Below, piece by piece: positions 12,349 to 54,820 of a stretch of DNA of 64,000 bases. Positions within the stretch are counted from its first letter, which is position 1; the number at the start of each line of letters is the position of its first letter. Both the position numbers and the translations under genes were made by a program. The notes under the pieces were generated by a model that was not told where the DNA came from, did not search any database, and worked only from the letters and a program-made list of their open reading frames with translations. The stretch covers positions 53,332-117,331 of IMG/VR virus record IMGVR_UViG_3300050132_000248. One strand, given 5' to 3'. This stretch comes from a virus.

Positions 12349-13782
12349 ATGAAAAGGGTAACTATTTTATATAGGGTAATAGCTGTATGCGTTGCCCTTT
12401 TCTTTCTTCCCTTGCTCTCAATAGGGCAGCACTATCAGGCAGGTTCAGGTTCTACTCCTTCCACCGGCTGGACGCCTCCTGCTGCATGGGTTGATAGTAC
12501 AGGTGCTATCACCACTTCTGTGATGGGTGCTGATGGAACTCTTGCTGCATCTACTATTAAAATCCTTGTCGATACACGTATGGCTAACCGTACCATTGCT
12601 TTCACTGTGACGGCTGCTAATGGCTATACGGTGAATTGGGGAAGGAAAGAAAGCGGGGTTAATTATGCTAACGGTGCTTTAGCAGAAAGAACTTATGATA
12701 GTACAAAATGTCAACGATATTGTGTTATCACTATAACCAAAACAGGTGCAGGGGCAATAACAGCCTTTACAGTATCTCGTAGTACAACCTATGTAGCAAC
12801 TCAAACTCAATATCCTCAATATCTATGGATAGCCGCTAATTATTCAGGTGCTGCACCTGTGATGTATATTTCAAATTGTTATACTTGTAATTTAAAGGCA
12901 GCTTATTTAATAACTGTAACCTCGTTGGGGTCACAATGCTTTTACGATTGCTACGCCTTGCAGTCGGTGACAATACCCAGTAGTGTAACCTCGTTGGGGA
13001 CATATTGCTTTTCCTATTGCTACGCCTTGCAGTCGGTGACAATTCCGTCAGGCGTAACCTCGTTGGGGACATATTGCTTTTCCTATTGCTACTCTTTACA
13101 GTCGGTGACAATACCCAGTAGTGTAACCTCGTTGGGGCCACAATGCTTTTACAGTTGCTACGCCTTGCAGTCGGTGACAATACCCAGTAGTGTAACCTCA
13201 TTGGGGACAAATTGCTTTGCCAATTGCACCGCCTTGCAGTCGATAACTATCCTCAGTTCTGTAACCTCGATTGGGGCAAATTGCTTTCAATATTGCTACG
13301 CCTTGCAGTCGATAACTATCCCATCAGGAACCACAAGCATACCAGCATCTATGTTTACAGGTGATGTATCACTTAATAACGTAACTTATACGGGAACAGA
13401 AACAAGTGCAGAAGATCACGGAACAAATATGTTTTATCAATGCGAACAGCTTGACACCTTAAAAATGGCAGGGTTGAAAACTCAAAGATTTGCATTTTAC
13501 GGACAAGCTGGTCAATTGAATAAATTAGGTTCAGTAGGCAACCTTCATAATGACAGCATACCTGTAAGGATAAACTGGGCCGCTTCTACTTTTGCAAGTG
13601 GAACCGCACCGCAACTAGACCTATCTTATTGCTCGATGACCGAATTACAAATGAGGGCAATATTAAACTGTCTACCTACCGTTGTAGGAAAGCAAGTAAA
13701 ATTATCGGGTAATCCCGGATATGCTTCATTAACAACGGCAGATAAAGCTAAAGCAGTAGCAAATGGATGGACAATAAATTAA
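12349..13782 (+). CDS. Secreted BspA-type leucine-rich-repeat protein
   Basis: A 477-residue protein. Residues 1-26 are a Sec signal (basic start, long hydrophobic core, IGQ end). A beta-rich domain spans ~30-185. Residues ~188-330 contain tandem 23-residue repeats of the BspA/LRR_5 type, with the pattern LQSVTIPSSVTSLGxxCF repeating. A C-terminal domain (~330-477) includes further LRR-like segments. BspA-type proteins are common on Bacteroidota and other host-associated cells, where they bind matrix proteins or partner cells. Their presence in a phage late block is unusual. G/C-richer codons differ from neighbouring capsid genes, which suggests transfer from a host. It could alter the surface of the infected cell or serve as a virion adhesin. 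Confidence 0.75.
   Translation: MKRVTILYRVIAVCVALFFLPLLSIGQHYQAGSGSTPSTGWTPPAAWVDSTGAITTSVMGADGTLAASTIKILVDTRMANRTIAFTVTAANGYTVNWGRKESGVNYANGALAERTYDSTKCQRYCVITITKTGAGAITAFTVSRSTTYVATQTQYPQYLWIAANYSGAAPVMYISNCYTCNLKAAYLITVTSLGSQCFYDCYALQSVTIPSSVTSLGTYCFSYCYALQSVTIPSGVTSLGTYCFSYCYSLQSVTIPSSVTSLGPQCFYSCYALQSVTIPSSVTSLGTNCFANCTALQSITILSSVTSIGANCFQYCYALQSITIPSGTTSIPASMFTGDVSLNNVTYTGTETSAEDHGTNMFYQCEQLDTLKMAGLKTQRFAFYGQAGQLNKLGSVGNLHNDSIPVRINWAASTFASGTAPQLDLSYCSMTELQMRAILNCLPTVVGKQVKLSGNPGYASLTTADKAKAVANGWTIN
12916..13329 (+). repeat. Six tandem 69-bp LRR repeats
   Basis: Copies starting at 12916, 12985, 13054, 13123, 13192 and 13261 each begin gtaacctcg or a close variant and are exactly 69 bases apart (23 codons). 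Several are nearly identical at DNA level, including synonymous sites, so they expanded recently and can recombine to change repeat number. Confidence 0.95.
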
Positions 13783-36700: not shown

Positions 36701-39700
36701 TTTGCAAAAACTCCTACATCTCTCTCTGACAAATTGACACTTAGGAATAATGTAATTGCTTCTCTCTATGAGAATGGAGTTGCCCGTATTGAACAGATTA
36801 AGAAAACCCTTGAGACAAATAAAGAAAGTCTTTCCAAATATGAAGAAACTCTTAAGGAGGAAACAACAAAACTTGAGAAAGAGACAACAAGGAAAAGAGT
36901 TATTAAGAAACAGGTTAGAGCAGTTGAAGCAAGTATAAAGAATCTTACGGATCTACATGAGAGAATTGAGAAGGAAAATATAGAACTTCAGAATGAGAAA
37001 GAAGAAATTGAATACAACCTTCCTATATTCGAGGAATTACTTAACAGTATTGATTCATCTGCTGAAGAATCAAAAGATATTTTACAACAGCTTAAAGATG
37101 ATGTTGATAATTCCGAAAAGCTGATTGATGTTATTTCAAAGCAATTGAAAGCTAATAAAGCTCTTACTGATCAAATACAAAAAGTTCTTTCTGAGAATCT
37201 ATCCATTTTAAAAGATTATATAAAAAGACTGCAGGAAGGGAATCCTAATCTTCCTCTCTCCATAGATGAATTTCAGGATAATATAGAGAAGTATCTTGGG
37301 GAAGAAGGGGCAAAACAACTTATTGCTGAGAGAGGAGGATTTACAGAACAAGTAATGGCATTGGAAAATGATATACTTGATTTTGAAGAGGAACTTAATA
37401 TTCCTTCTCTTTCAAAAGAGGTAGTTACCCTTCAAAAGGAAGCTACCGTTCTTAATGAACAACTTGATGATGCTATAAAACTTCAAATGGCTAAGGATAA
37501 AATCTATGAGGCATTCAAAGAGTTTGTTGATAAACTTGCTCAGGAGGAGAAAGAAGAACAAGAATTTGAGAAAAATGAGGAATTGAAGAAACAATATATT
37601 GGCACAATGGATGATAGTATGCAGAATGTACTTAGTGAAATACATTATGAACCTGCATCAAAGAAATCCTTCTGGTCAGTAATTCGTGGAACAAGACCTT
37701 TCACTCTAAGTAAGAGACAAATAGAAAGAGGAGAGGAAGAGAAACCTCATAATGTAAGAGCTAATAGGTTTGGATTTAAATTTTCTAAATTCAGTGAAGA
37801 GAAACAAGCAGCAATCAGAGGAATAGTAGTTACCCAGAATACTCAAAATGATATTCTTCCCGGACTTACTGATTTTCTCATGAAGGATGCTACTCCAGAA
37901 CAATTAAGAAAATATAAGAAGGAAGAGATTATTGCACTTGCCATGGTGCAGATGAATGACGATGGACAAACATACTCTCTTGTAGATGAAAATGGAGATG
38001 TCATTCCAGAGAAAGATGAAACTGGTAATACTGTTAATCCTCTTGATAGAGCAATCTTCCAGACCTTCCCTATGAGGGATTTAAAAGGTTTTTATAAGAG
38101 TAAAGATGCTGTAGATGATGAAGACATGGAAGAACAAACCATGTTCAGAGATGATGTTCCAGAGAAGAAGAGACTTGCTGCAGAAGAACAATATCAGAAA
38201 TGGAGAGATGCCACTTTACAGAAAACAACATTGGATCCTCCTGAAAAAATAAAGGTATCTTTTGGTATTCCTGAACTTGCAAAAAGAACTGATGAAAAAG
38301 GAAATTTAGTACCAGATAAGGGAGCAAGAACCTCTGCAAAGAAAGCAGGTTTTGTATCAGATGAAGATTTAGACTCCCATCAGGTAATTACTGTTTCTAC
38401 AGAGGATGAAGCTAATGAAGGAGAGGTTACATTTAATAATAGTAAGGGAAGAGTATTCTTAAGAGTTCCAGGGCAAGGACTTGTAAAACTTTTTAATAGA
38501 AAATTTTCTGATGTAGAAGCTAATACAATATTTGATGTTATTCAACAGATATGTAAAAATGGTGCAAAGAAAGGACAGATAACTCCTGAGACCAATCTAC
38601 TTATCAATTGGCTTAAGACAGTTGTATATTGGGGAATAGCAAAAGATCCAAATACAAATGAAAGAAAAGCCGCAGGATATAATAATATATGGTTTGAAAC
38701 AACAAAAGAAGAAGGAAAGCCAGTAACTAGACTTTACATCTCTGGAATCACTAAAGATAAGAGTCAGGCTTTCATGTTTACACCAACAGGATTACAGGAG
38801 AGTAAGTATGAGATTGTTTCTCTCCTTCAGAACCTATATCATAATACATTTGCCACAAAGGTAAATCAGGATAGTTGGCAGAACAAATATTATGAAATCA
38901 AAGGAATAGATAAAGAGGGCAATCCTATAACAGAGGAATGGCCAAATTATCAAACCTATTTACTTTCTGATAAGTCAGTAAAGGATGGAAAGCTTAGTGG
39001 AGAAAGGAATGAAAAAGAAATTCCATTAGTAACTCAATATAAACCAATAACTAATGAGAATGATGTAAATAGAAAGAGTATTTATTTCACATTAAACTCT
39101 CCTACAAGCGATTATAATTTTGAAGCAGAAGAACAGAAAGCAGAAACACCAAAGACAAAGAAAGAAGCTAAGAAACCAGCAACAGAAGAATCAAAAACCA
39201 AAACAAAGAAAGAAGAGACAGCTTATAAACCTGCTCTATTGAAACTTGATGGTTCAGATGAAATGATTCACTTTGATTCATTTGGTGGATTTGATATGAT
39301 GTTTAAACTTAATGCTAAAACTTCTAAAGAAAAAGGAACTATTGATTCCATCTCTTATCCTCAGAAAGCTCTTGATGCATTACAGAATCAAGGAAAGACA
39401 TTAGATCAAGCAAAAGCAGAGCTTAAGAATGCTCTTCTTGCTAAATTGAAAGATCAACTTAATCTGGCTAATGTTCCTAAAGCAGCACCTATAGCAGATG
39501 CTCTTCCAGTTGCTGAAAAAACTGAAGTAAAAGAGAATAATATTGAGCAAAAGAAAAAAGATATAGAAAAAAGAATTCCTGCTTATGTTGACTTTAGTAA
39601 AGGAAAAACAAATAGTCTAAATACATTTAGAAATGAAGCAAGAAGAAAGTGGGAAGGCATTGAAGAAGATGTTATTACTGGAGGTAGACTTCTTAACTTA

Positions 39701-42700
39701 CAAACAGGAATAAATTTCTTAGCAGAAGCTTTTCCAGAATTTTCAAATCTTAAAGACATGTTCTTTAAGAAATCAGATAGTCAAGCTATTGGTATTAAAT
39801 TTTCTGATTTAGTAGAATTAATAGATACCTTAAGAAAACAAGGTATTGATACAGAAGAAGATATAGGTAATAAAATTAAATCTAAATATGAAAATGAAAT
39901 ATCTGAATTAGATAAGACTTCTAAAGAAACTAAACAGGAACCTAAACAAGAATCCACTACAATTGAAGATACCCCAATGGGTATAAAAGAGTCACAACAG
40001 ACACTCAATACACCCGAAGAGGTACAAAATAAAACAGAAGAGGATGATGATATTCCTTCAATAGGAAAAGAAAATAATGAGGCAGCATTTAGAATTGTTC
40101 CATCAGAAAAACCTGTTATATATGAACAAGAAGATTGGGACAAGGTAGAGAAAGATCTTACAAAAATGTTTTCAGTACTCCCTGTATATAGAGTAAGGAA
40201 TGCTATTAGAGCAACTAATGGTAGACAAATTTGGGGAATGCTTCATGAGGGAGGTATCTATCTTGATCAGAATGCAGAGGTTGGTACTATATATCATGAA
40301 GTGTTTGAAGCTGTGTGGAAAATGTTTGCTGGTCCAGAAGAGAAAGGAAAGGTATTAGATGAATTCAGAAGTAGGGATGGAAGTTATCGGGATAGGTTCA
40401 ATCCCATGCATCCATTAATTGAGTATAAAAATGCTAAACCTGAACAGATAAAAGAAGAAATTGCCGAAGAGTTTAGAGATCTTAGATTATATGGAACAAG
40501 AATTGCTACACCAAGAGGACAGAATTTTATAGCCAGACTGTTCCAGAATATTATAGATTTCATCAAGACATTCTTCACTGGAGAGAAATCTCAGAGGAAC
40601 ACACAGGACTTATTTGATAAAATAGGAAATGGATATTATAACAGGTTCAATCCTTATGAAGCAAAATTATCATTTGCTAAGAAGGGCTTTATAAATGTTG
40701 AGGATGCATTCCCTAATGAAGACTCTGAACTTAGAGAGAAAATTCCAACACAGCAAACTCATGATATCATTCAACACATGACCTTTGCTTTTATGAGGGA
40801 TGTAACTAAAACAAATCAGAGTTTATTCCAAATTGAGAAATTAAAGAAAGCAGAAATATATGCAAACTTAAGACTTGAGATTCTTGGAAGAATAAAAGGT
40901 GTAAGAGATGCTTATGCTCAAAGAGCACAAAATGGAGAACAAGCTGCAATAGATGGAGTGAATGCTACTCAACAATTATATGATAATACAAAAGCAGAAT
41001 GGAATGCTCTTGTTGAAAGACATGAACAATTTCTAAATACCCGAGGGTACACCTTTGATGAGAATGATGAATTGAATATGGAGGATGAGAATAAAGGAAA
41101 AGATGAACCTTATGGAGATCCAAGAAAAGTAGACTCTTTCAGAAAATCTAATGCTGCTATTAAAAATCTTCTTGGATCAGTGGCTTATTCACAGAGAGTT
41201 AAAAGAATGATAAATGGAAAAGAGCAAATATCTACAGAGTTTGTTCCTTCTACAATAGGTGGTGCAAAACTTCTTGCTCCTGATCAGGTGCATATTGATC
41301 TTGTAAATAAATTATCTAAGGCATGTGATCTGGATGATATGTTTAGTCTATTCAGAAAAGCAGCAATAGATAATCCTAATTATGAATCTCTTTATCATAG
41401 AGTTGCAAAGCAGACTATTGCTGAGAATACAATAGACTATGATAAGTTTGAAGACTTTGATTGGCAACTTATATCTGCTTTCTGGAAATCTTTTAAACTC
41501 CAGAATCCTGATGCACTTACAGTATTTATTCTTTCTGATGGTAATGTTATTGTCAGTGATTCTTCTATGAACACTGCTACAAAGCAGTCAAAGAAAGAAA
41601 TGTTCTATTCTATGGTTAACAAAATCAAGAGTGATGATTGGGAAAAAGGAAAAGAGTTCTTTACATATAACAAGAAGAATGGAAAGTATACAGCTACAAA
41701 GACTTTGAAAGATATAAAGTTCTCAGGAACCTCTCTTACTAATTATATACTGTTCTTAAAAAAATTAGGTATTGATTTTAAAGAAGAAGATTTAAATGAT
41801 TTAAGACCTACACAGCTTAAACATTTTAGGGATGCTGTTAAAGGGATGCACACAAGTCTTGCTAATCTTGGTCCAGTATTTAATAAGGTGGGAGAACCTA
41901 TAGATGAAGATGGTTATGTAGTGGATAAGAATACACATCTAAGTAAGAAAAGAGAAGATGCTCCAGAAGGAAAACCACAGAATGACAAAAGTGTATATTC
42001 TCTCACATCTAAAACTCTTGACATTGAAGGAAGACTTACCCAACTTGGTGTAATAAAAGCTATTATTGACAGACCTGAATTTGAGAGTACTTATTTTAAT
42101 ATCAATGGAGAGAGAACACAAACTTATATTGGTAGTAATGCTGCCAGCAGATTGTATGATACAATTTCTTCACTAAAGAATCTGAATGATCTTAATAGCG
42201 ATGTAAAAGATTATAAGCAGTTTAGATATCTTCTAACAGATGCTTTTACTCAAGGATCAGTTATTCTGAATAGAATTTTCCTTATGGATAGTACTAAAGC
42301 CAGAAGAGATGGAACAGAGAATATATTAAAAACTACCTTGGCTGATGGAATGAACGATGAAGAAAAAGGCAAGAGTAGAGAATCTTCAAAACAATCTTAT
42401 AAACAAAGACTTATACAGGAAATCAATTTGAATACGAATGGATGTTATTTAAATCTGGTTCCTGCAGATGCCTCTATGGAACATGCTACAAGAATGCATG
42501 AAGAAACTACTCCATTTGTAACTGATGATTCTTTTCTTACAGGTGGCTACCTCTCTATATTTAAAGACTATTTCACTTCTGAACTTACTCTCTCCAGAGA
42601 TAGGAATAGAAGAGTGGTAAAGGGAAAGAAGAAAAGCGATATGCGTTTCTTTAAGGATATCCTTGGGGATGAACTCCATAATAATATTGTTTCCAAACTC

Positions 42701-45700
42701 AATAAGGATAAAAGTCCTGAGGACGTATATGAGAAATATCATAGCAAAATAGAAGCAGCAGTAAAAAACTTTATTCTCAATGAAGCAGATGATACTTATG
42801 ACCTTCTTAAAACATTTGATATTGTAAAAGAAGATGTTGATGGTCTAACTGCTGAGAATCTGAATTTTGCTAATAATATGGATAGTATTACAGAGAAGGA
42901 TTTAAAAACGAAACTTGGAGCTATCTCTGCTAACTATGTTATTGCGAACATAGAAATGCATAAACTTCTATATTCAGATCCCTATCAGTATGAGAATGAG
43001 CTTAAACGTATAAAGAATTTTCTTTCACCAAGGCAATATCTAATGCATGGTTCTCCAAGAGTGAATAGTGCTCTTAATAATGTGTATAATAAAGGATTTA
43101 AGAAAGGTGATATTGGATATACTGATATGAATAGAGATCATTTCAGGGTAGCTACTCTTGCTGATGTGTGGTCTACTGCTGACTTAGACGGATATTATCC
43201 TTTTGAAGAAACTGATGGTGGTGGTATGATTACCATAAAAGGAAAAAGAATGCTTATGTTAAGAGCAGGAATGTGGACAGATGCATTGGAAAAACAATTC
43301 AGACATGATATTGAATATGAAAGAATTGTAAAGGAAACTAAGAATGATATTGATAGAGAAAAAGCACTTGCAAACCATGAGTTAAATAATCCTGGAGTGA
43401 AGGAACTTTACACTCCTCTCAAACCTATTGTTGCAGGTAGTAAAGCTAATGGAAGAAATTATAATGATGCTGTTCTTCAGAAGTTTGCTCTCTCCGTATA
43501 TTCATATAGAATTCTTCATCAACTTGATCCTAATTCCAATGCTATCAAGTTGTATAATAAAATGACGAATGAGGACATAGATTATGCGATTTTTGCATCA
43601 GGGGTAAAGGTGGGAGCAGAAAAACAATTTAATATCTATAATCAGGATGGTTCATTCAATGATGATTCTTTTGAAACACAAGAAGAAAGGGATGATGTTA
43701 ATAAGGAACAAGGAGTTACAAAGATTCCTTATTCTATTATGGCAATACAGTCTGAAGTTCCTACAAAGGAAGGAAATGATGTAACCCAAGGTTCCCAGAT
43801 GACAAAACTTGTCACTATGGATTTCATGGATGCAGGAATGCCTATTGACTTCATGGCTACTGAAAAGGATTTTGACAAGAGAATGGCAAAATGGATAGAG
43901 CTGAAAGATAAGGGCTCTTATAATAAGGGAGATAATCTATATAATGAAATAAAGAATAATCAATCTCTCCATGAAGCAAGAAAAGAAGAAGCTTATAAAA
44001 CTCTGTTAAATAAATTAGGAATAGAGAAAACCGCAGATGGATTTAAAATTGCTGACAGAGACAAACTCTCAACAGCTCTCTCTGGAGAAATAATGAGAAG
44101 AGAAATTAACGATAACATTATTAATGCATTCAAGGAATTCAAACAGAAGAATGTTATTCTTGAAGCAACTCCTTCCTATCAACAAATAAGACATGTTCTT
44201 TATTCAATTGCAGACAAGAGTCTTGTTCATCCAAAGATAACAGGAGGACAGAAGGTTCAGATTCCCTCTACATTCCTTGAGAGTATAAGAGGAAAAGCAA
44301 TTGAGAAGACTGATGAGGATGGAAAGAAGAAAACTACATATACCTCTGATATACTAAAATTCTATGTAAATGAAGATGGAAAGCGTGTTTGTCAAATAAT
44401 GTGTGGTAGATGGTTTAATAGTGATTTGTCTGATGAGGCACTCCTTCATTATTTGAATGATACAGAAGAGGGAAAGAGAATATTAAGAGGGGTAGCTTTT
44501 CGTATTCCAACACAGAAACAAAATTCTATTGATACTTTTGAGATTGCTAAATTCCTTCCAAAGGAATATGGAGACTCAGTTGTTATTCCTTCAGCTCTTG
44601 TAAAGAAAACTGGTTCTGACTTTGACATTGATAAACTCTCTATGTATCTGAAAAATATATTTCAGGATACAGATGGAAATTTAAAACTTGTTCCTTATAA
44701 AGGAATAGGAGAAGAAGCAAAACGTGATATGAAAATGGCTGCTGCTGATTTTCTCAATAGGAAAATGAAATCCCTTGAAGGAAAATTAGAGAAGAATGAG
44801 AATATGCAGGATTTGTTTGGTAAACTCTCTCTTGGACAGGTAAGCGAGAAAACTTTTAATAAATGGCTACCTATTCTTAAAGATTGGTTTGGTAACAATC
44901 TTGTTGATGGTAAACTTCCTGTAGCTGATATTGAACAATTCTTCATGGATAAGATTGAATCAATCAATAAGAAGTTATCTACTCTTAATGATGATGATAT
45001 GTATGATATCATGAATAAGGAACAAGCAGATAGATGGTATAGACAATCTCTTGATAATGAATACATTGAATCATGTGAAAGACTTATTTCTCATCCTCTC
45101 AACTTCAAACATTTAACAGATCCAAACTCATCAAAACAATTAGAGGATATTGAAAAGGGAATAACTAAAGCTCTTGGTGAAGAGGAAATTGATTATGCCA
45201 ATGTGGGGAATATGCTTAATAGAAGATTCATGTCATCCTTAAGACAGGCTTTTGTTGCAGGAAAACAGATGATTGCTATGGCTGCTATTGGCCAGACAAA
45301 CAATGCACAGAATCAAAGATTTATCTCTTACATTGATACAGATAGATTGAATACTCCCGGGATGATAAGTTTAGAAGATAATGAGGTGTTGGGAGGGAAT
45401 GAAAAATCACAAATGTATGCAAACAATCCTAATATTAATTTTCAAGAATATAATTCGGTAATAATAAAAGGTAAGAGAGTGGCAACACTTTCTAAAGCTC
45501 AGGATGCAAACATAAATTCAAAGAAGAGAAATTTCATATCTGATATTATTAGTCAGATAATTGATGGTTGTGTTGATATTGCAAAGAAAGGACCATGGGT
45601 TACACGATTGGGAATTACACCAACACTTGCTCCTACATGGTTATTCCTTATAAAAATAGGTGTGCCTATTAAGAGTGTTGCCTATTTTATGAATCAACCT

Positions 45701-47599
45701 ATTATAAAGGATTATGTAAAGCAAATTGAGAACAAAGGATATTCATGGTTATTCATTAGTGACTTCATTGAGAATTCTCTTGATTCATATTCTCCATCTA
45801 AAGAACAATCAATATCTGAAATCCCATCTGAAGAAGAACTTGAAAAGACAGTAGGAAAGAAAGCTAATGAACTGTCAGACTCTCAACTTGCTCAACAACA
45901 ATATATGTTAAAGGAATTTCTTAAATATGCAAAGATGAGTTCTCATCTCCTTCAGATAACTCAAGGATCCAATTTTGATACTGCATATTTGAGTGATCCT
46001 CTTATTATTACTAAGAAATTGATGCAATATGAGAGAGCAAAGAACTCTATCATCTCTTCTGTGGATGATCTCATTGATGCATCTTTTGTTAGAAAATTAA
46101 AGGATATAATTTCTAATGTTAGAAAGGCTTTTGCAGAAGTTCTTATTTCAGATAAGAAAAATGTATTAGATAGTGTCCTTGGTCCTTATATTAATATGAA
46201 TGACAGAGACTTCTTAAAACTTGCACAGAAAGCAGTTTCAGATTTGTTTGATTGGGCAATGCAGACAGACCAAAATGTTGCAGGAAAAATAGCAAATGTT
46301 CTTGTGAATAAGAAGGTAGATGATAAAGAGATTAAAAGCTATGTGAGACAGGTGATGGATTTTAAGGATAAGATATTTGGTGATCCTGCAAAGAATATTA
46401 AACCTGATATTAATCATCCTCTTTATAATAACTTTGTTCTTAAAGCTTTACAATTAAAACCTGGAGAGAAAGAAGGAAAGGTAGATAACCTTCTCATTAA
46501 AGGAAAAGAGAATAAAGTGTATGATCAGAATATGGTGATACACGGATTTGAAGAAATTCGTGATTACTTGAAGAATAAAGGAGATGATACTCTTTACAGA
46601 AAACTTCTTGCTATTACTGTCATGCAATCTGGATTGAAGAAATCAATTCTTTCTTTTACTGATTTACTTCCTTATGAGGATTTCAAAGATGTGTATTACA
46701 ACTCATTGATTAATATGAACGATGTTCCATATCTATCTGATTTTCATACTGCTCATATCTTTGAAAGAAATAATTATAATGAAGATGACATTATTCCATT
46801 TATAAAAGATAAATTTTCTGAAGGTAACCCTACATGGAGACATCCCGAAGAACCAAGCAGATATTATAAAAATCAAATCTTTGTTGGTGATGGACTGTTA
46901 AAAGCCCAGAAGAAAAACAATGTTCCTATGATTGCATCCATGGATATAGCATCAAGACAAGCTTCTGGAGACTTCATGGTTTATTCATGGCAGGACAAAA
47001 TATCTGTTAAGGAAAGAATAAAGAGGAGAAAGAATGGAGACACTTCTCACATTTATAAACTCCTAATGAAAAAAGTTTATTATGAGAATGAAGAAGGAAA
47101 AATCGTACCTTTGGTCTATATTTCTGAGGTGATGGGTAAAGATGGTATTACACGTACATATAAAAGATACATCTATAAAGCAATCAACACATTAGGTGAT
47201 TCATATATGGCAAGAGAGTTTCCAACCAAGAAAATATTTGCTGATCCTAATTCTACATTAATGAATCCTTCTCTTCTTAACAATGGATTTGACAAGGTGG
47301 AAGAAAAATATGATGCAAATGGACAAAAGATTAGTTCAGGAGAGGTAGAGGATGAAACTGTTGCATATTATTTCAGTAAGGGAGAAAAGAATACAGAGAA
47401 TGAAGTTGTAGAAGAACCTGCTTATTTAAAGAATGAGAATGCCCCAGAGGGCCTTCCTCCTATTAAACGATCACCTGACCAAACAATAAAACTGAAGGAT
47501 GGAACATTCAAATACTCAGAAGTTTCATCTGATATGTTAGAACAAATGGGATACAGTCCTAAAGAAATAGGTGAGAAGTTAAAAATGATTTGTGATTAA
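33770..47599 (+). CDS. Giant virion protein with crAss-like RNA polymerase motif
   Basis: A 4609-residue fusion. The N-terminus (1-~250) has weakly hydrophobic segments (for example ~107-127, ~200-215). A long charged coiled coil spans ~1005-1265. A zincin-like HEVFE lies at 2176-2180. A region near 3617-3621 reads GSDFDIDKL; DFDID is the catalytic double-psi-barrel motif of the virion RNA polymerase known from crAss-like phages, where Asp residues bind magnesium. In those phages the enzyme is packed in the capsid, ejected and used to transcribe early genes. No host-type subunit is present. What the first ~2000 residues do is unknown; they may aid passage through the tail or envelope. Smaller cargo genes precede it. 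The frame has no stop or shift over 13.8 kb. Confidence 0.75.
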   Translation: MQDEPIVNLSGAPDYSVKGTAISPPADPTYTPLNDPNPFPNELKNKPIGGSDITMAEAAQYNPSKLSGGIMYGETSENTRAQNQSAISRIGNAGINLVNKTGAYIIQNAGFIGGAAFSALGGLVNYGNEALGGEGKIVANGNAVSLMSDNFLTQIGDAWKEAVQEANPIYKTDKYTNGNIWQKLATTSWWLDDAIDRAALTGAMLIPGMLESKGLFGVAGLAMREGGAIEASGMIPKVAKYLADNPKMYGTIGRALGSDVYEAAATGVVDESTAAGLAFKKAVQTAQNLEITSFNVIGQNALNGRESQTAIVKSLNEQRDKGLNTYTDDEIKDMAAEGAKASFWYNMPLTLLSSMWEMPQVFASFKGATNLLKKITGAQTSEELEQGITGAIGKSSAPSFWNLAWKAPITALEHGQLESSQVAIGRYVEEAIAGKMVDGHLEKKGQGEAFNPWNISDAMTGSFGEYINNFHDPNGENNIALGTIQGLLTTIFGRAFKGFTGEYSKQDKANDNLLKGMNEALASRRLFNPISDMVETDKEGNIVTVKGDDGKQHVKLDQDKLAQLGVSYVDAIKNYEDRLKYIANGDKVSVDMMNFNSLKALAANFFQDAHGKEYLKNVLRWEAKQQNQNPERQNDVTGTEEETPDVKLQENLEYVDHLYKIYNAIDQRHAGFLNLDVNYKDKTEAALAQVFTEKYKTLQYNNGADQVFYNNQIAKNNTELGGITEKSTDDGVVAQRNNNLLDQNEILNNKLDISKQEYKNSIDRDLINQAWTEEKAHYQDIKNTIEKIKQDAIDESTESKSVTKIPINTKYGERQIETNTDYVVGKVIDKDEQGNDVFSAPIIRVLGKNEDGTIKIQYNNNKGQWVNSDISEDHLDNYSLTKRSDLQKNKKANYVFEHWNTMFQHWGIKDNKGNPVTGRLEYNQAKNQILFKYIDDKGKERRREIIGRNVVTQDGYNHPMLQAVGELKASQKQATDEFAKTPTSLSDKLTLRNNVIASLYENGVARIEQIKKTLETNKESLSKYEETLKEETTKLEKETTRKRVIKKQVRAVEASIKNLTDLHERIEKENIELQNEKEEIEYNLPIFEELLNSIDSSAEESKDILQQLKDDVDNSEKLIDVISKQLKANKALTDQIQKVLSENLSILKDYIKRLQEGNPNLPLSIDEFQDNIEKYLGEEGAKQLIAERGGFTEQVMALENDILDFEEELNIPSLSKEVVTLQKEATVLNEQLDDAIKLQMAKDKIYEAFKEFVDKLAQEEKEEQEFEKNEELKKQYIGTMDDSMQNVLSEIHYEPASKKSFWSVIRGTRPFTLSKRQIERGEEEKPHNVRANRFGFKFSKFSEEKQAAIRGIVVTQNTQNDILPGLTDFLMKDATPEQLRKYKKEEIIALAMVQMNDDGQTYSLVDENGDVIPEKDETGNTVNPLDRAIFQTFPMRDLKGFYKSKDAVDDEDMEEQTMFRDDVPEKKRLAAEEQYQKWRDATLQKTTLDPPEKIKVSFGIPELAKRTDEKGNLVPDKGARTSAKKAGFVSDEDLDSHQVITVSTEDEANEGEVTFNNSKGRVFLRVPGQGLVKLFNRKFSDVEANTIFDVIQQICKNGAKKGQITPETNLLINWLKTVVYWGIAKDPNTNERKAAGYNNIWFETTKEEGKPVTRLYISGITKDKSQAFMFTPTGLQESKYEIVSLLQNLYHNTFATKVNQDSWQNKYYEIKGIDKEGNPITEEWPNYQTYLLSDKSVKDGKLSGERNEKEIPLVTQYKPITNENDVNRKSIYFTLNSPTSDYNFEAEEQKAETPKTKKEAKKPATEESKTKTKKEETAYKPALLKLDGSDEMIHFDSFGGFDMMFKLNAKTSKEKGTIDSISYPQKALDALQNQGKTLDQAKAELKNALLAKLKDQLNLANVPKAAPIADALPVAEKTEVKENNIEQKKKDIEKRIPAYVDFSKGKTNSLNTFRNEARRKWEGIEEDVITGGRLLNLQTGINFLAEAFPEFSNLKDMFFKKSDSQAIGIKFSDLVELIDTLRKQGIDTEEDIGNKIKSKYENEISELDKTSKETKQEPKQESTTIEDTPMGIKESQQTLNTPEEVQNKTEEDDDIPSIGKENNEAAFRIVPSEKPVIYEQEDWDKVEKDLTKMFSVLPVYRVRNAIRATNGRQIWGMLHEGGIYLDQNAEVGTIYHEVFEAVWKMFAGPEEKGKVLDEFRSRDGSYRDRFNPMHPLIEYKNAKPEQIKEEIAEEFRDLRLYGTRIATPRGQNFIARLFQNIIDFIKTFFTGEKSQRNTQDLFDKIGNGYYNRFNPYEAKLSFAKKGFINVEDAFPNEDSELREKIPTQQTHDIIQHMTFAFMRDVTKTNQSLFQIEKLKKAEIYANLRLEILGRIKGVRDAYAQRAQNGEQAAIDGVNATQQLYDNTKAEWNALVERHEQFLNTRGYTFDENDELNMEDENKGKDEPYGDPRKVDSFRKSNAAIKNLLGSVAYSQRVKRMINGKEQISTEFVPSTIGGAKLLAPDQVHIDLVNKLSKACDLDDMFSLFRKAAIDNPNYESLYHRVAKQTIAENTIDYDKFEDFDWQLISAFWKSFKLQNPDALTVFILSDGNVIVSDSSMNTATKQSKKEMFYSMVNKIKSDDWEKGKEFFTYNKKNGKYTATKTLKDIKFSGTSLTNYILFLKKLGIDFKEEDLNDLRPTQLKHFRDAVKGMHTSLANLGPVFNKVGEPIDEDGYVVDKNTHLSKKREDAPEGKPQNDKSVYSLTSKTLDIEGRLTQLGVIKAIIDRPEFESTYFNINGERTQTYIGSNAASRLYDTISSLKNLNDLNSDVKDYKQFRYLLTDAFTQGSVILNRIFLMDSTKARRDGTENILKTTLADGMNDEEKGKSRESSKQSYKQRLIQEINLNTNGCYLNLVPADASMEHATRMHEETTPFVTDDSFLTGGYLSIFKDYFTSELTLSRDRNRRVVKGKKKSDMRFFKDILGDELHNNIVSKLNKDKSPEDVYEKYHSKIEAAVKNFILNEADDTYDLLKTFDIVKEDVDGLTAENLNFANNMDSITEKDLKTKLGAISANYVIANIEMHKLLYSDPYQYENELKRIKNFLSPRQYLMHGSPRVNSALNNVYNKGFKKGDIGYTDMNRDHFRVATLADVWSTADLDGYYPFEETDGGGMITIKGKRMLMLRAGMWTDALEKQFRHDIEYERIVKETKNDIDREKALANHELNNPGVKELYTPLKPIVAGSKANGRNYNDAVLQKFALSVYSYRILHQLDPNSNAIKLYNKMTNEDIDYAIFASGVKVGAEKQFNIYNQDGSFNDDSFETQEERDDVNKEQGVTKIPYSIMAIQSEVPTKEGNDVTQGSQMTKLVTMDFMDAGMPIDFMATEKDFDKRMAKWIELKDKGSYNKGDNLYNEIKNNQSLHEARKEEAYKTLLNKLGIEKTADGFKIADRDKLSTALSGEIMRREINDNIINAFKEFKQKNVILEATPSYQQIRHVLYSIADKSLVHPKITGGQKVQIPSTFLESIRGKAIEKTDEDGKKKTTYTSDILKFYVNEDGKRVCQIMCGRWFNSDLSDEALLHYLNDTEEGKRILRGVAFRIPTQKQNSIDTFEIAKFLPKEYGDSVVIPSALVKKTGSDFDIDKLSMYLKNIFQDTDGNLKLVPYKGIGEEAKRDMKMAAADFLNRKMKSLEGKLEKNENMQDLFGKLSLGQVSEKTFNKWLPILKDWFGNNLVDGKLPVADIEQFFMDKIESINKKLSTLNDDDMYDIMNKEQADRWYRQSLDNEYIESCERLISHPLNFKHLTDPNSSKQLEDIEKGITKALGEEEIDYANVGNMLNRRFMSSLRQAFVAGKQMIAMAAIGQTNNAQNQRFISYIDTDRLNTPGMISLEDNEVLGGNEKSQMYANNPNINFQEYNSVIIKGKRVATLSKAQDANINSKKRNFISDIISQIIDGCVDIAKKGPWVTRLGITPTLAPTWLFLIKIGVPIKSVAYFMNQPIIKDYVKQIENKGYSWLFISDFIENSLDSYSPSKEQSISEIPSEEELEKTVGKKANELSDSQLAQQQYMLKEFLKYAKMSSHLLQITQGSNFDTAYLSDPLIITKKLMQYERAKNSIISSVDDLIDASFVRKLKDIISNVRKAFAEVLISDKKNVLDSVLGPYINMNDRDFLKLAQKAVSDLFDWAMQTDQNVAGKIANVLVNKKVDDKEIKSYVRQVMDFKDKIFGDPAKNIKPDINHPLYNNFVLKALQLKPGEKEGKVDNLLIKGKENKVYDQNMVIHGFEEIRDYLKNKGDDTLYRKLLAITVMQSGLKKSILSFTDLLPYEDFKDVYYNSLINMNDVPYLSDFHTAHIFERNNYNEDDIIPFIKDKFSEGNPTWRHPEEPSRYYKNQIFVGDGLLKAQKKNNVPMIASMDIASRQASGDFMVYSWQDKISVKERIKRRKNGDTSHIYKLLMKKVYYENEEGKIVPLVYISEVMGKDGITRTYKRYIYKAINTLGDSYMAREFPTKKIFADPNSTLMNPSLLNNGFDKVEEKYDANGQKISSGEVEDETVAYYFSKGEKNTENEVVEEPAYLKNENAPEGLPPIKRSPDQTIKLKDGTFKYSEVSSDMLEQMGYSPKEIGEKLKMICD

Positions 47600-47611
47600 T
47601 AAATTATAAAT

Positions 47612-50600
47612 ATGGCAACCTGTCCAAATAAGAATTTGAAAGAGTGGAAAGATCTTGTACAATCCAGAGGTGAAAGTATTGCTCATTATCTATGGGATAA
47701 ACATAAAGGAGAAGTTCCAGAGAAAGAATATGGGATAGGTCAGGAATCAGTAATATATGATTTAAAATCTGTTCGTGCATTAAGAAATGCATCTATAAGA
47801 AATTTTGATATTTCTAAGAATAAAGGAGAAGGTTTCTTTGCTGATTTGCAAAAACAAGGAGTTCCTAAAGATCAAATAGAACTTGTAAGAGATATTCTCT
47901 CTGGATATGATAAACTCTCTGCAAAGGAAGTGGCTACATTAATGGAGAATGCTTATAAGTTTGATGTAGAAACAATTACATCCAAGAAAGATAAACATCC
48001 AGAGAGTGTAGCGGAGAATTATGCCCTTATTGGAAACTATAACTATAGCAGACATGTTAGTTATCAGACTGGAGAATATATTTACAATAAGGAAAATAGA
48101 ACCACAGGTAAAGAGGAAATAATTAGTAAACAAGAGTTTGATAAGGCGATTAATAAATATAATGAACCTGAAAATACAGAACACTATGCTAGATTAACTG
48201 TTCCAGGTGGAAATAATTATTCGGAGAATGTAATCAGAACTCCAGGAATTACTGTATTACCGGATATATATACAGACCATGAAGGAGACTTTAATCAGCA
48301 GAGGGGAGATATGCTTGGCTGGTTCAGAAGTGATGATATGATTGATAAGAGTAGTGAAGCAATTGCTTTAAGAACTGAGGCAAGAAAAACTAATGATTAT
48401 TCTATAGCAAAAACAATTCGCAGGGTTCTTGAAATTCAGTCTAAGTTTCAGAAGGCTAGAGATTATAAATCTTATGTAAGTAATGAAAAAGAAGAAAGAC
48501 AAGTACTGTTAGATAAAAATGAAACTTTCTATAAATTTACTTTAAATAATGATGAATATAATATAGATTCAACTCGTGGTAAAACTTATTTCAAAAATGG
48601 TGAAAATATAGATAGTAAGGATTATGTCTCTGCTTATCAATCACGTTTGAAACAAATATTACCTAAATCATCATCATCTAAGGAATCATTCATACAACTA
48701 TTAGCAAAAGATAACAACTGGGTAACATTCTTCATTAAATCTATTCTTCAAGATAGTGCCAAGAAAGGATATGAGAAAGTATTATTTCCAAGAGGAGAGA
48801 CTGCTGCTAAGGTTGAAGGACATCAACTAGTAGCTGATGAACTTGTTAGACTAAATGAAAATATTAAAGAATCTAAAGCTAAAATTAAAGAAATAGAAGA
48901 TAAAAAGGATGAATATTTTGATTGGTCTAAAGAAATTTTATTAAAAAATGAGAATGAAAAATTAGAGGGGTTAGAACGGAGATTTAAAGAATATAAAGAA
49001 CAAGGTATAGAAAAACTTGCACCTATTGAAGCCTTCTATGAAAAAGCTCTTACTAATATTCTCAAAAAGACATATGGGGATGATATAAGAAAAGTAAAAG
49101 ATGAATATGGTAATGAATGGAATGAAGTAAATATAAAACAAGAACGTGATTTAGAACCCATTCTTCTTCAGAAAGCAGAAATGCCAGTATCCAAAGCATC
49201 ACCAGAAACTCTCTCAAAGGTGAGAGAGGTTGTTAAGAAAATGGGTGTCAATCTTCAAAATCTATCTGACTATTTGAAAGGCAATCCTAATGTACAGGCT
49301 AAAGGAGCAAATGCCCTTACTGATCTTCTCCATGGAATAATAGCAATAGCAGAAGGAAAAGAGAATATTGCTTTGACAGAAGAAATGGTACACGTTGCTA
49401 CATCTATCCTTGAGCAAAAGGATCCAATGCTTGTGACAGAAATGATAGGCAAGATAGATAGATTTTCTATTTATAAGAAGACATTAAATGAATATAGGAA
49501 TGATGTTAATTACCAGACGAAGGATGGAAAGCCTGACATTCGTAAGATTAAAAAAGAGGCTGTTGATAAACTAATTACAGAATTAATTGTCAATAAGAAC
49601 GAAGGAAATACAGAATTTCCTGAATTGAGAGATGAAACAAATAAATCCATTATAAGACAATGGTGGAATAAAATTCTTGATTGGTTCAGGGGGCAATATA
49701 AGAAAGCTAATGTTGATGTGTTCAATGAAGCTACTAATAAGGTGATGAATAATAATTTAGGAACAATAAATGATATAAACAATAATCAAATATATTTACA
49801 AAATGAGTTCACCAAAATTCAACCAGAGACCTCTTACAGAAGAGGAGAAAATGTTAACTTACCAAAAAATTTCGAGATATTATGGGACAGATCAACTGAT
49901 GGGAATAAATTACAACGACACAGGGGAATTTACAACAGCTTGGGATCTTACAATAGTAATACCATTTTCGGAGAAACTAATTGGACTTCTCTTAGAAAAG
50001 AGTTCAATGATAAACTCAACTCCTCTGATATGGAAAGGGAACAATTATTCACTCATACCCTTATTAGTCTTATCAGATCCACATATGGAAATACATTCAA
50101 TAAAGGACTTGCTGGAAAACTTAGTGGATTTAGATACGTCATTGTAGATAATCCTAAAATGTCTCCTATATATACTAGAGGATCGGACATCTGTCTTAAT
50201 ATAAATAAAGAAAGTTCCTTCATAGATCATATTTTTAATAATGCAAAAGAAGGAAATGAGTGGAATCTATTAGATACAATGGTATCTGAGGAACTTATTC
50301 ATTTAGTCTCCTCTAAATTATCAACACCAAAAGAAACAACTGATGCTTATAACGAATTAACACAAGATGATAAAGTTCAAATTTTACAAACATATTTTCA
50401 TGATAATAATTTAGTAAATACTACTTTATTAAAACCCTATCAATATGTACATGAATATGTACGTATGCAAATTCAGAAGAAGGTATTAGGATGGACAACA
50501 GAAGAAACGAGAACTACACTTAAAAAAATTATAGACAAGGTTTGGAACTATCTAAAGGATCTTCTTCCTAAATATACATCCTTGAGATCAATTTATGATA

Positions 50601-53600
50601 AGACATTGAACTTTATAGAAAAAGGAGAAGGAGAATTAAATGAAAATTCTTCTAATGAAATTCTTGGTCTTCCTCAAATTGTTTCTGATGCTCAGAAGAA
50701 AATACAGGAAGGAATTCTTGCAACACCAAATACTATAAGAAAGGTTTATAAGCCAGGAAAATCTGATCCCATGTTTCAGGATACAGAGGAAGCTGATAAT
50801 TGGTATGAAAGACTTATTAATGGTAAGTGGGATGCAAATGGTGTAAAGAAAAGAGTTACGGACAGAGTGAAGACATGGTTTAAACAAAGATTTCCAGATA
50901 AAGAATTTACTCCTGCAGAGAAAACAAAGAATGAATTGAAAAGACAATTTGGTGTCCGTTATCATACATTTCTTGATGAAATTCATCAGAGATATTTTAA
51001 TGGTGATGGAACAAAAAGAGATGTTACAGATGAGAGACCTACTATTAATGATCCTATAGATGCAAGAGTGTATGATCTATTAGATAGATTCTATAGTAAA
51101 TTCACTGAACAATTTTTTAAGGATGGAAAAACACCATTAGTTTTCTCTGAAAGAATTATTTATGATCCTAAACAGAAAGAAGCGGGTACTTTAGACCTAA
51201 TTGTTGTTGATGAAGATGGAAAAACAAATATTATTGATTGGAAATTTCTTGAGGTGGGAAAAGGGAAAGATGATATTGCTCGGTTTAAACAGGGAGCTTT
51301 CCAAATTCAACTTGGTAGATATAAAGAAATGTTAAAGGATGCTTATGGAATAAAGAGTTTTGGAATGACAAGAGCTATTCCTTTTTTATTAAAAATTGAT
51401 AGAGAAAATCCAAATGATGAGAAATCTCCTTATGTTATTAAGGGGATAACTGCAGGTAATGTTGACACTACACAAATAAAAGATTTAAGGCTTATGCCTG
51501 TTTCTGAGGAGACAGAATCTACAGGAGATGAAAATAGAGATAAGATTATTGTCAAGCTGAATGCTATGATGAAGCAGTTTGCTAAAGAGAAAACTACTAA
51601 TGAAGAGGATAGAGAATACAAGATTGAAAGACTGAATACTATTAGAAGAGCTATTCGTGAAATACAAGGAAAAGGAACCTATGATACTCTTATTAAAACT
51701 ATTAAATCCTTAAAAAAACAAGGAGATAATATAATTTCTGATTGGACTTCTCTCTATAAAAACAGAGTTCCTTCTGATGAGGATGTAAAGGATGAAGACC
51801 TTTCTGACTTTGCTATTGGATTAAGAGAATATCGTGATGTTGCAACAACGGTTAGTGATTTTTCAAATACATTGAGAAAACTGTTATATGACAATGATAA
51901 GAAGGAAGATGTAGTAAAAGGTGGAAAAGAATTATCAGATGACATAAGAGATGAGATAGAAAATATTCGTGAGTCATTTGATGATGTCAAAGGAATAATA
52001 AATGAGTTTTGTGATAAGTTTATAGGACTTAGAAATCTTGTATCAGGGATTTTAAAACCAGAACGTGTTCTAAAAGGACTTATGGCAACATTTGGTAATA
52101 TAACACAAATATCATTAAGGTCAGTGAGAATATTATCAAAGATGGTTACTGAAGCTAATCTATCTGCATCAAGAACTGCTTTTGATCAGGTGAGTGAACT
52201 TATGGGGATAAGAGAAAAACTGCTTAAGAAAGGTGGAAACATACATAATATTGTCAGACAAATCTATCAAAAGGATGATGCTGGAAAAATAGTTAATAAA
52301 CTAATTTATAGATATAGTGGAGAATTCTATGATAAACTCAAAGAGAATGCTCAGGATGGAAAGCAGGATAAGAAATGGATAAGAGATAATATTGATATAG
52401 TTGCTTATAAGAAAGCAGCCAAAGAGGTTCTTGAGAGAAGTATAAGACATTATGAAAGGCAATATAAAGATGATAAGGACATGATGAATTCTCTTATCAA
52501 ACAAGAAGTGCAGAGATGGGATATTGATGGAGATATTATTAATACCATCAAGGGATATAAAGATTATAGTAAAAAGAAATTCACTGGATGGACCAACTAC
52601 TTGATTGATAATTATCCTCTTGAGAAATGGGAATCAGAAGAATATAAGAATCTTAAAAAGGATGAAGATTTATTCTCCCTGTATAATTTCATAACTAGAA
52701 TTAATGAAGAAGCTAGAGGAGTTGGCTATATAGATGGAGCCGTGAGAAATACATTTCTTCCTTTTATAAGAAGAAGTACAGCAGAAGCACTTGCTTGGGG
52801 ACTTAATCCTTCTGTTGTTAGTAGTTGGTTTGATAAATTAACACTTAATGCTGATATTAAAGGAGATAAGAGAAATGAGCTTAGCGGAGAAATGGAGAGG
52901 AGTATTCCTAAATATTATACCTATGATTTCACAAGAAAAGAAGATGGAACTCATGATTATTCAGATGTGAGTGAGGAAATCTTTAAGAATATGGTGTTGT
53001 ATATCAATCATATGCAGAAGTATAAAAATCTTAAGCATATTGAAGGACAAATACAATTATTAAAAACTGTAGAGGAATTCAAAGGTCATCTTAAGACAAA
53101 TAAAATAGGAGATGTTGGAGAAGCTGAAGTTCTTAAAGATAATGATGAGAATGTCAAAACACTGAATAAATTTATCAATGCAACAATCTATGGAGATAAA
53201 TATTCCAACTCTGATACAGATATTCCTATTCCTATTCATCCATTTAATGCAATGGGTAAACTAATAAACAGAGTAGCAGGAAGAGAAGTATTTGATGTGG
53301 AAGAACATCCAGATCCTTATTCTCTTATTAAATGCATGGATGCTCTCAACAGTTACTTTCGTATTAAGACATTAGGATTTAATGTTGTCTCTGGAGCTGC
53401 TGTTTATTTTGGTAGTAATATGCAGGTGTTATCACAGGCTGGTAAATATTTCACAGAGGGTGAATTTCTTGCAAATACAATGAAACTATTAAAATCAAAT
53501 AGATTTATTAATGATGATGATAGAAAAATGTTCCTGCAACTGATAGATACATTTGTTCCTATAAGAGCTGATAGAATGGATGCTCAGGTGAGAAAAGCAG

Positions 53601-54820
53601 GCGTATCCTCTCCATTTAGCAGAGTGAGTTTCAATGGTGTATTAATGTCTGTATTAACACAACCAAGTGAATATGTTGAGAAGAGTATATTCATGAGCCT
53701 ACTTGACAATATGATGGTTAATGAAGGAAAGCTTGTAAATATCACAGACTTTGTAAATAGCAAATATGGAGACAGATGGGAATCTGCAGCCAAGCATAAA
53801 GAAATAGCTGGAAAAATAAAATCTGAAATTGCAGAACTTAAGAAAACACGTTCTATAAATTCAATCAAACATTTGGATGAGAATGGAAATCTTGTTATCC
53901 CGGGATTTGATTTGAATAACACAAAAGAAATAGACCGTCTTACTAATTTAACAAGAAATATAGCAAGGACATCTACCCACGGAAGAACATCTTCTGATAT
54001 TAATCAATTCTCCATGAATGTATGGACCAACTCTATGCAGGTGTTTAAGACATGGATTCCAAAACTTGCAATCTCAAGATTTCAACATTTTGATAAGGTG
54101 GGAGATGACTTCAATGCAAAAATAGGTGATGATGGAAATACAGATGGGGAAAGATGGGATGTAGGTAGACTTAGATTGTTCTGGTATGCATTTAGTCAAC
54201 AAGTAATGGGTAAATCATCTGGTATCATAAGTATTCTGTCAGCCAGTGAAAAGGGTGTAGAAACAATGAATCAAATGTATGATGATTTTGGCAGAGAATA
54301 TGAACAGGGAACAGGAGAGAAAATGACAATGCCTAAGGAAGAATTCTTCGATCTTATAAGAACCAATTTAAGAAATGAGGTGAGAGAACTTGGTGTATTA
54401 TTCTCATTAGCAGGGGCTTTGTTTGCTACAGGATTCTTTGCTCCAGGGAGAGATGATGATAAAGCAGCAAAGAATGCTCATAATTATTATGTTAGAATAA
54501 TGGGAAAGTTTGTTGAACAGCTTTCACTATTCTATAATCCTGTAGAGATTCAGAATGTATTGAGTGGAGGCACATTTCCTGCTCTTGGAATATTTACTGA
54601 TATACAAAAATTCACACATAGTATGGTAATGGAAATTACAGGATTAGACAGTTCCAATCCTACCCTCTCTGCTGATGAGGTGGCAAAGAAAGCTCAACCT
54701 ATAAAATATGGAATGAGTTTATTTCCTATGGGAAAAGCTTTTGTAACTTATATGTCTATGTTTGATGCAGATTTTGCAAAGGAATTTAATGTTAGTGTTT
54801 CTGACAAAAATCAGAAGTAG
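47612..54820 (+). CDS. Giant virion protein with PD-(D/E)XK nuclease-like domain
   Basis: A 2402-residue protein. Two EExxH motifs occur, TEEMVH (590-594) and SEELIH (893-897), on helices. A nuclease-like module spans ~1130-1250 with GTLD (Asp1195), IIDWK (Asp1209 and Lys1211) and QIQLGRY (Gln1233, Tyr1237), the order used by RecB/Cas4-type PD-(D/E)XK enzymes. The second half is helical and charged with a final hydrophobic stretch (~2260-2280). It follows the RNA polymerase gene by 12 bases, so both are probably packed and ejected together. It might trim or degrade DNA after entry. crAss-like genomes usually carry several giant virion proteins at this place. Confidence 0.65.
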   Translation: MATCPNKNLKEWKDLVQSRGESIAHYLWDKHKGEVPEKEYGIGQESVIYDLKSVRALRNASIRNFDISKNKGEGFFADLQKQGVPKDQIELVRDILSGYDKLSAKEVATLMENAYKFDVETITSKKDKHPESVAENYALIGNYNYSRHVSYQTGEYIYNKENRTTGKEEIISKQEFDKAINKYNEPENTEHYARLTVPGGNNYSENVIRTPGITVLPDIYTDHEGDFNQQRGDMLGWFRSDDMIDKSSEAIALRTEARKTNDYSIAKTIRRVLEIQSKFQKARDYKSYVSNEKEERQVLLDKNETFYKFTLNNDEYNIDSTRGKTYFKNGENIDSKDYVSAYQSRLKQILPKSSSSKESFIQLLAKDNNWVTFFIKSILQDSAKKGYEKVLFPRGETAAKVEGHQLVADELVRLNENIKESKAKIKEIEDKKDEYFDWSKEILLKNENEKLEGLERRFKEYKEQGIEKLAPIEAFYEKALTNILKKTYGDDIRKVKDEYGNEWNEVNIKQERDLEPILLQKAEMPVSKASPETLSKVREVVKKMGVNLQNLSDYLKGNPNVQAKGANALTDLLHGIIAIAEGKENIALTEEMVHVATSILEQKDPMLVTEMIGKIDRFSIYKKTLNEYRNDVNYQTKDGKPDIRKIKKEAVDKLITELIVNKNEGNTEFPELRDETNKSIIRQWWNKILDWFRGQYKKANVDVFNEATNKVMNNNLGTINDINNNQIYLQNEFTKIQPETSYRRGENVNLPKNFEILWDRSTDGNKLQRHRGIYNSLGSYNSNTIFGETNWTSLRKEFNDKLNSSDMEREQLFTHTLISLIRSTYGNTFNKGLAGKLSGFRYVIVDNPKMSPIYTRGSDICLNINKESSFIDHIFNNAKEGNEWNLLDTMVSEELIHLVSSKLSTPKETTDAYNELTQDDKVQILQTYFHDNNLVNTTLLKPYQYVHEYVRMQIQKKVLGWTTEETRTTLKKIIDKVWNYLKDLLPKYTSLRSIYDKTLNFIEKGEGELNENSSNEILGLPQIVSDAQKKIQEGILATPNTIRKVYKPGKSDPMFQDTEEADNWYERLINGKWDANGVKKRVTDRVKTWFKQRFPDKEFTPAEKTKNELKRQFGVRYHTFLDEIHQRYFNGDGTKRDVTDERPTINDPIDARVYDLLDRFYSKFTEQFFKDGKTPLVFSERIIYDPKQKEAGTLDLIVVDEDGKTNIIDWKFLEVGKGKDDIARFKQGAFQIQLGRYKEMLKDAYGIKSFGMTRAIPFLLKIDRENPNDEKSPYVIKGITAGNVDTTQIKDLRLMPVSEETESTGDENRDKIIVKLNAMMKQFAKEKTTNEEDREYKIERLNTIRRAIREIQGKGTYDTLIKTIKSLKKQGDNIISDWTSLYKNRVPSDEDVKDEDLSDFAIGLREYRDVATTVSDFSNTLRKLLYDNDKKEDVVKGGKELSDDIRDEIENIRESFDDVKGIINEFCDKFIGLRNLVSGILKPERVLKGLMATFGNITQISLRSVRILSKMVTEANLSASRTAFDQVSELMGIREKLLKKGGNIHNIVRQIYQKDDAGKIVNKLIYRYSGEFYDKLKENAQDGKQDKKWIRDNIDIVAYKKAAKEVLERSIRHYERQYKDDKDMMNSLIKQEVQRWDIDGDIINTIKGYKDYSKKKFTGWTNYLIDNYPLEKWESEEYKNLKKDEDLFSLYNFITRINEEARGVGYIDGAVRNTFLPFIRRSTAEALAWGLNPSVVSSWFDKLTLNADIKGDKRNELSGEMERSIPKYYTYDFTRKEDGTHDYSDVSEEIFKNMVLYINHMQKYKNLKHIEGQIQLLKTVEEFKGHLKTNKIGDVGEAEVLKDNDENVKTLNKFINATIYGDKYSNSDTDIPIPIHPFNAMGKLINRVAGREVFDVEEHPDPYSLIKCMDALNSYFRIKTLGFNVVSGAAVYFGSNMQVLSQAGKYFTEGEFLANTMKLLKSNRFINDDDRKMFLQLIDTFVPIRADRMDAQVRKAGVSSPFSRVSFNGVLMSVLTQPSEYVEKSIFMSLLDNMMVNEGKLVNITDFVNSKYGDRWESAAKHKEIAGKIKSEIAELKKTRSINSIKHLDENGNLVIPGFDLNNTKEIDRLTNLTRNIARTSTHGRTSSDINQFSMNVWTNSMQVFKTWIPKLAISRFQHFDKVGDDFNAKIGDDGNTDGERWDVGRLRLFWYAFSQQVMGKSSGIISILSASEKGVETMNQMYDDFGREYEQGTGEKMTMPKEEFFDLIRTNLRNEVRELGVLFSLAGALFATGFFAPGRDDDKAAKNAHNYYVRIMGKFVEQLSLFYNPVEIQNVLSGGTFPALGIFTDIQKFTHSMVMEITGLDSSNPTLSADEVAKKAQPIKYGMSLFPMGKAFVTYMSMFDADFAKEFNVSVSDKNQK

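Follow-up and report, generated by a model that had tools for sequence, protein, structure and literature searches.

The window that we analysed is a 64,000-base stretch comprising bases 53332-117331 of a 117,331-base IMG/VR virus record (a metagenomic contig), and it carries, all on the + strand, a crassvirus major capsid gene (1725-3278; Pfam Crass_capsid, E = 2.2e-23), a crassvirus muzzle gene (18911-24727; Pfam crAss_MUZ, E = 1.6e-42) and, downstream of the latter, an open reading frame (ORF) for a 2402-aa protein (47612-54820) that holds a nuclease domain and is presumed to be virion cargo. On the basis of the Crass_capsid and crAss_MUZ matches, we assign the source genome to a crAss-like phage (Crassvirales). 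The three Crassvirales marks that we looked for were present, i.e., the crassvirus capsid, the muzzle, and the DxDxD motif of a virion RNA polymerase (GSDFDIDKL). Amid the structural genes, positions 12349-13782 encode a BspA-type leucine-rich-repeat protein (LRR_5, 9.8e-59). Further along, the ORF at 31091-33763 (890 aa) has a relative, at 5e-15, in the cyanobacterial Leptolyngbya phage Lbo-JY46, a phage with a comparable row of giant genes; a profile of the nuclease domain found no match among the giant proteins of that phage.

Directly upstream of the nuclease-bearing ORF, and separated from it by 12 bases, lies an ORF of 4609 aa (33770-47599, + strand), which we predict from its G[SA]DFDIDK motif to encode the virion RNA polymerase. 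This ORF contains VKKTGSDFDIDKLSMYL (motif GSDFDIDKL), in which DFDID (aa 3617-3621; 44618-44632, + strand) corresponds to the DxDxD catalytic motif described for the RNA polymerases of crAss-like phages (PMC7886860). Large ORFs from 70 related loci have the same G[SA]DFDIDK pattern, and the putative RNA polymerase of crAss001, gp50, has SGSDFDVDKLYIML (SGSDFDVDKL). The 2402-aa protein has a DIDGD of its own at aa 1637, which we considered as a polymerase motif and set aside in favor of the DFDID of the upstream ORF, given the recurrence of the latter in the 70 loci and crAss001 gp50. The predicted polymerase is encoded as one ORF of 4609 aa, whereas crAss001 gp50 measures 2412 aa. Searches of the 4609-aa ORF with Pfam and PHROGs returned nothing convincing.

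Within the 2402-aa ORF, a first-pass annotation had proposed a PD-(D/E)XK nuclease-like domain at 51000-51340 from the motifs GTLD, IIDWK, and QIQLGRY. All three are there in frame, at aa 1192 (51185-51196), aa 1207 (51230-51244), and aa 1231 (51302-51322), respectively, on the + strand. The proposed interval does fall within the domain, but it omits an N-terminal conserved helix with H1118 as well as the C-terminal strands; the domain covers aa 1060-1345 (~50789-51646, + strand). The added N-terminal part includes the motif FGVRYH (50948-50965, + strand), with H1118 at 50963-50965. The first core strand (E117-126 in the model described below) bears a conserved acidic residue, E1180 (51149-51151, + strand). 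Upon aligning 76 sequences, which were ~25-55% identical to the window domain where measured, we found G1114, H1118, E1180, T1193, D1195, D1209, K1211, Q1233, and P1257 unchanged in every row, while Y1237 changed once (75/76). Asp1209 and Lys1211, which had been singled out earlier for mutation and were correctly numbered, thus proved conserved in 76/76 sequences. We discarded the spacing of the three motifs as evidence by itself: among 2000 shuffles of the protein, 162 (8%) displayed the core motif pattern, and only 6 did so once the G...H motif (G1114/H1118) was added.

To obtain a structural view of the domain, we built an AF2 model of aa 1060-1345 with 53 sequences, which reached a mean pLDDT of 91.2 and a pTM of 0.87. 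The model displayed a core of H42-69, E117-126, E131-140, E146-154, H165-186, and E191-205, and this alpha-beta-beta-beta-alpha-beta order is the one expected of the PD-(D/E)XK core, so that the nuclease core anticipated from the motifs was indeed found in the predicted fold. In a Foldseek search against the PDB, the top match and closest solved structure was human MGME1 (PDB 5zyt, 5zyu, and 8xa9; E = 1.8e-4, probability 1.0, 17% identity, TM-score ~0.4), followed by the Argonaute-associated Cas4-family ACE1, Exo5, AdnAB, Cas4, AddAB, and Dna2. Since TM-scores to solved structures were low throughout (0.2-0.4), the class is clear while the subfamily is fixed only loosely. Among viral structure models, proteins from Virus NIOZ-UU157 (48% identity) and from the crAss-like phage cr108_1 matched best. 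At the level of sequence profiles, a search of the kind that the first-pass annotation had suggested matched the domain to PHROG 298 (exonuclease) at 1.5e-6, with matches for 46 of the 53 relatives. Pfam PDDEXK_1 stayed under its curated cut-off, both for a 200-aa piece (E = 0.0019) and for the window domain (E = 0.0017; 18.8 bits versus a cut-off of 22), and matched 15/53 relatives, the best at 1.1e-5. A sequence-profile search against solved structures matched no nuclease.

The nuclease fold is common to the window domain and to Cas4, Exo5, AddB, and Dna2, and the original label of “RecB/Cas4-type” therefore holds at the level of the fold group, as borne out by AF2 and Foldseek. It does not extend to the iron-sulphur cluster: In Cas4, AddB, and Exo5 of the iron-sulphur type, four conserved cysteines bind a 4Fe-4S cluster, whereas the window domain contains no cysteine and none is common in the alignment, which excludes the iron-sulphur subtypes (Cas4, AddB, Exo5, and Dna2). 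MGME1, by comparison, lacks an iron-sulphur cluster and has the motif order H, GxxD, DWK, Q, as in the window domain, although it is a mitochondrial single-domain enzyme, unlike the giant phage protein. MGME1-like is hence the more exact label. Judged from its motifs and the model, this is a PD-(D/E)XK domain belonging to the RecB/MGME1/Cas4 group, its active site intact, and we predict that it is most likely a metal-dependent DNA nuclease. The same record encodes a second, stand-alone PDDEXK protein outside the window (G000:C1:7235-8131), kin of the one annotated in cr108_1. We rejected a recent duplication of this stand-alone protein as the origin of the nuclease domain, since a search of it with the domain profile gave no match. 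Because such a separate protein is encoded, the domain in the giant protein is probably not the sole replication/recombination nuclease of the phage.

The whole 2402-aa protein gave no match among annotated phage records at 1e-5, and a single-domain search of viral contigs found nothing. In the absence of direct matches, relatives were gathered via the capsid protein and then via a tight domain alignment. We picked 37 records by a related capsid protein, i.e., independently of the nuclease, and 21 of these matched the nuclease domain. When these records were searched with the C-terminal 702 aa of the giant protein, 22 of the 37 matched: those 21 plus a record truncated by its contig end. The nuclease was thus present in every testable capsid-picked relative holding the giant protein (21). 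The domain alignment of this close group subsequently led to 80 loci in viral contigs. For the nuclease domain, dN/dS amounted to 0.015-0.21 (14 closest pairs, dS below 0.8), which shows that the domain is under strong constraint, i.e., purifying selection. With no testable relative lacking it, the domain is more suggestive of a core step of infection than of a variable weapon.

The surrounding protein was less uniform across the 80 loci. Its last ~1000 aa were kept in 70-80 of them and aa 451-750 in 72-73, while the stretch preceding the nuclease varied in length from ~55 to 950 aa among relatives, and beyond the nuclease the protein includes other domains as well as N-terminal regions that are lineage-specific. 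The region of aa 451-750 contains an invariant EExxH, which sits in a conserved, all-helical domain (aa 528-735; 49193-49816, + strand; AF2 pLDDT 78). E590, E591, and H594 of this motif, together with E649, were invariant in 76 of 77 aligned rows, with a gap in the remaining row, a fragment. The motif resembles an HEXXH in which Glu invariably takes the place of the first His. We considered a zincin metallopeptidase and dropped it as unsupported, as the fold is helical and a comparison of the EExxH domain with the PDB gave nothing better than E = 1.2; searches on this domain also returned weak DUF2397/JetA matches. The adjacent aa 751-1050 (49862-50761) are an insertion that was found in only one to two other loci of the 80. 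This insertion carries a second EExxH (EELIH, aa 893) and perhaps represents an internal duplication. Near the C terminus lies a hydrophobic 19-mer (aa 2260-2278; 54389-54445). Such a segment occurs among the final 250 residues of 75 out of 76 proteins, a weak hint that the cargo protein touches a membrane, possibly through this segment.

Such an architecture recalls the “polyvalent” proteins, which are likewise giant and multidomain, are injected with phage DNA, and in some cases are fused to virion RNA polymerases (PMC5512222). They commonly carry an HEXXH metallopeptidase, whereas the EExxH found here lies in a helical domain of another, unmatched fold, and we found no RecB-type or related nuclease domains among the polyvalent proteins in the text of Iyer et al. 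2017 (PMC5512222). Injected multidomain proteins of this kind are known to have roles in conflict (PMC5512222), and the additional domains and lineage-specific N-terminal regions of the giant protein would fit a nuclease for counter-defence or exclusion, one that destroys the DNA of plasmids and of other phages, superinfecting or resident, or else nucleic acids that defence systems employ. Typical conflict genes are variable, however, unlike a nuclease that is under purifying selection and found in every testable relative, and known defence and anti-defence families went unmatched except for a weak match to DruK (E = 0.031). We therefore regard such a role as unlikely.

PDDEXK domains have been reported before in this setting: Yutin et al. 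2021 described one in a large transcription-associated protein of some crAss-like phages, with an unclear role (PMC7886860). The window protein resembles that case in that a PD-(D/E)XK domain lies inside a giant protein adjoining a DxDxD RNA polymerase. In its available sections, the text of Yutin et al. 2021 speaks of “some phages” and gives no role, active-site analysis, or virion link (PMC7886860), whereas here the domain occurred in every testable relative of one metagenomic clade, with the catalytic residues all conserved. Collinear pieces of the 2402-aa protein matched a 1714-aa protein of cr108_1 (QOR58988), and the two are collinear over much of the protein. Annotated merely as a hypothetical protein, QOR58988 shares ~25% identity with the window protein in the domain and has an intact H, GTCD, DYK, and Q...Y; a profile built without cr108_1 recovered it at 3.7e-25 (search space set at 10,000 sequences), with the His retained.

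In two cultured Steigviridae, crAss001 and DAC15, a diverged PDDEXK region likewise sits in a giant protein associated with the RNA polymerase (gp47, aa ~1700-1868, and gp61, respectively), toward the C terminus rather than in the middle as in the window protein. In gp47 this region reads GTSVD, GEVD, YDVK, and QLSAY. It thus retains the lysine along with the acidic residues, while in both phages Asp replaces the His (in gp47 within GTSVD). Farther downstream, at aa 2157, gp47 (L188:10120-17145) has an intact zincin-type HEAFH that was not seen in the window protein. The replaced His shows that the active site tolerates some change within the order as a whole, and one could therefore suppose that the domain has kept its fold as a noncutting nucleic-acid clamp for the RNA polymerase; that a nuclease fold may serve purely as a binding module is our own extrapolation. 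A pure binding module would have no need of the expected catalytic residues, which are invariant in 76/76 sequences, and we consider a clamp very improbable.

The relation to gp47 bears directly on how the giant protein may reach the cell. By mass spectrometry, gp47 (262.5 kDa) was found in crAss001 virions alongside gp49 and gp50 (PMC10172136). The C-terminal part of DAC15 gp61 matched gp47 (tblastn, 6e-7), and the cr108_1 protein matched gp47 across the nuclease region (8e-4), whereas a direct comparison of the window protein with gp47 yielded a weak similarity (E = 0.018 over 79 aa) that lies elsewhere than the nuclease. Because this direct similarity is weak and the link runs via DAC15 and cr108_1, carriage in the virion is a point that we infer, and one that distant homology supports: The 2402-aa protein would be carried into the cell within the particle. 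The ejection asserted by the first-pass annotation accordingly finds its backing, through homology, in a virion-detected, late protein of crAss001 that carries a diverged copy of the domain (PMC10172136, PMC8375218). Overall, we think it likely that the 2402-aa protein is virion cargo ejected with the adjoining RNA polymerase and that the PD-(D/E)XK domain in its middle is an intact, metal-dependent DNA nuclease of RecB/MGME1 type.

The timing of expression adds a further consideration. During crAss001 infection, gp47 is transcribed late, unlike the other polymerase subunits, gp49 and gp50, which are middle genes (PMC8375218), and by extension the 2402-aa protein, too, may be expressed late and packaged into virions. 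Late transcription would also suit a nuclease that serves packaging or assembly at the end of the cycle, trimming or debranching packaged DNA, and is merely left in the capsid; such a role predicts presence in the virion equally well. Yet the protein sits in the polymerase-associated ejected set, and packaging cuts come from the terminase, which makes a late role of this kind improbable in our estimation.

As to what the ejected nuclease might cut, our tentative preference, held at somewhat less than even confidence, is for the ends of the phage's own incoming genome. MGME1, Exo5, and AddAB act on free or single-stranded ends. We prefer end processing of the own genome because these nearest folds need such ends and an incoming linear genome offers them. 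The 2402-aa protein would be packaged and ejected together with the virion RNA polymerase; to judge from its class, the nuclease would depend on DNA ends that are free or single-stranded and leave intact circles uncut; early in infection it would resect or trim the linear genome at its ends as it enters, and the trimmed ends would then allow the genome to circularize or the co-injected polymerase to load. The more specific version, in which the injected nuclease readies resected or single-stranded genome ends so that the co-injected virion polymerase can start early transcription, is a speculative one to which we give little weight. To our knowledge, the coupling of a virion RNA polymerase with its own DNA-end nuclease has been described for no phage.

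The same end dependence weighs against the reading that the injected nuclease breaks down the host chromosome, contributing to host shut-off and to the supply of nucleotides. Brought in by the virion, it would be the earliest nuclease in the cell, and crAss001 infection strongly inhibits host transcription genome-wide from 10 to 30 min (PMC8375218). Nucleases with the folds of MGME1, Exo5, and AddAB, being end-dependent or specific for single-stranded DNA, nevertheless do not readily suggest an attack on a circular chromosome that is intact, the phage DNA entering simultaneously would be endangered, and the middle genes of crAss001 include other candidate host-degrading nucleases (PMC8375218). 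We rate host degradation as possible but not probable, and processing of the ends of the incoming phage genome stays our preferred, if tentative, reading.

In the human gut, few viruses are as common as crAss-like phages. That proteins of this kind in crAss-like phages contain PDDEXK domains was already known in 2021, and a 2023 review describes the exact function of these nucleases as unclear (PMC10136315). Our analysis adds the presence of the domain in every testable relative of the clade, an invariant active site, an MGME1-like fold, and a tie to a protein known from the virions of a phage in culture. With named catalytic residues, their invariance in 76 sequences, and a diverged copy in gp47 of cultured crAss001, function becomes a testable question: does the nuclease accompany the virion RNA polymerase into the cell, and what does it cut?
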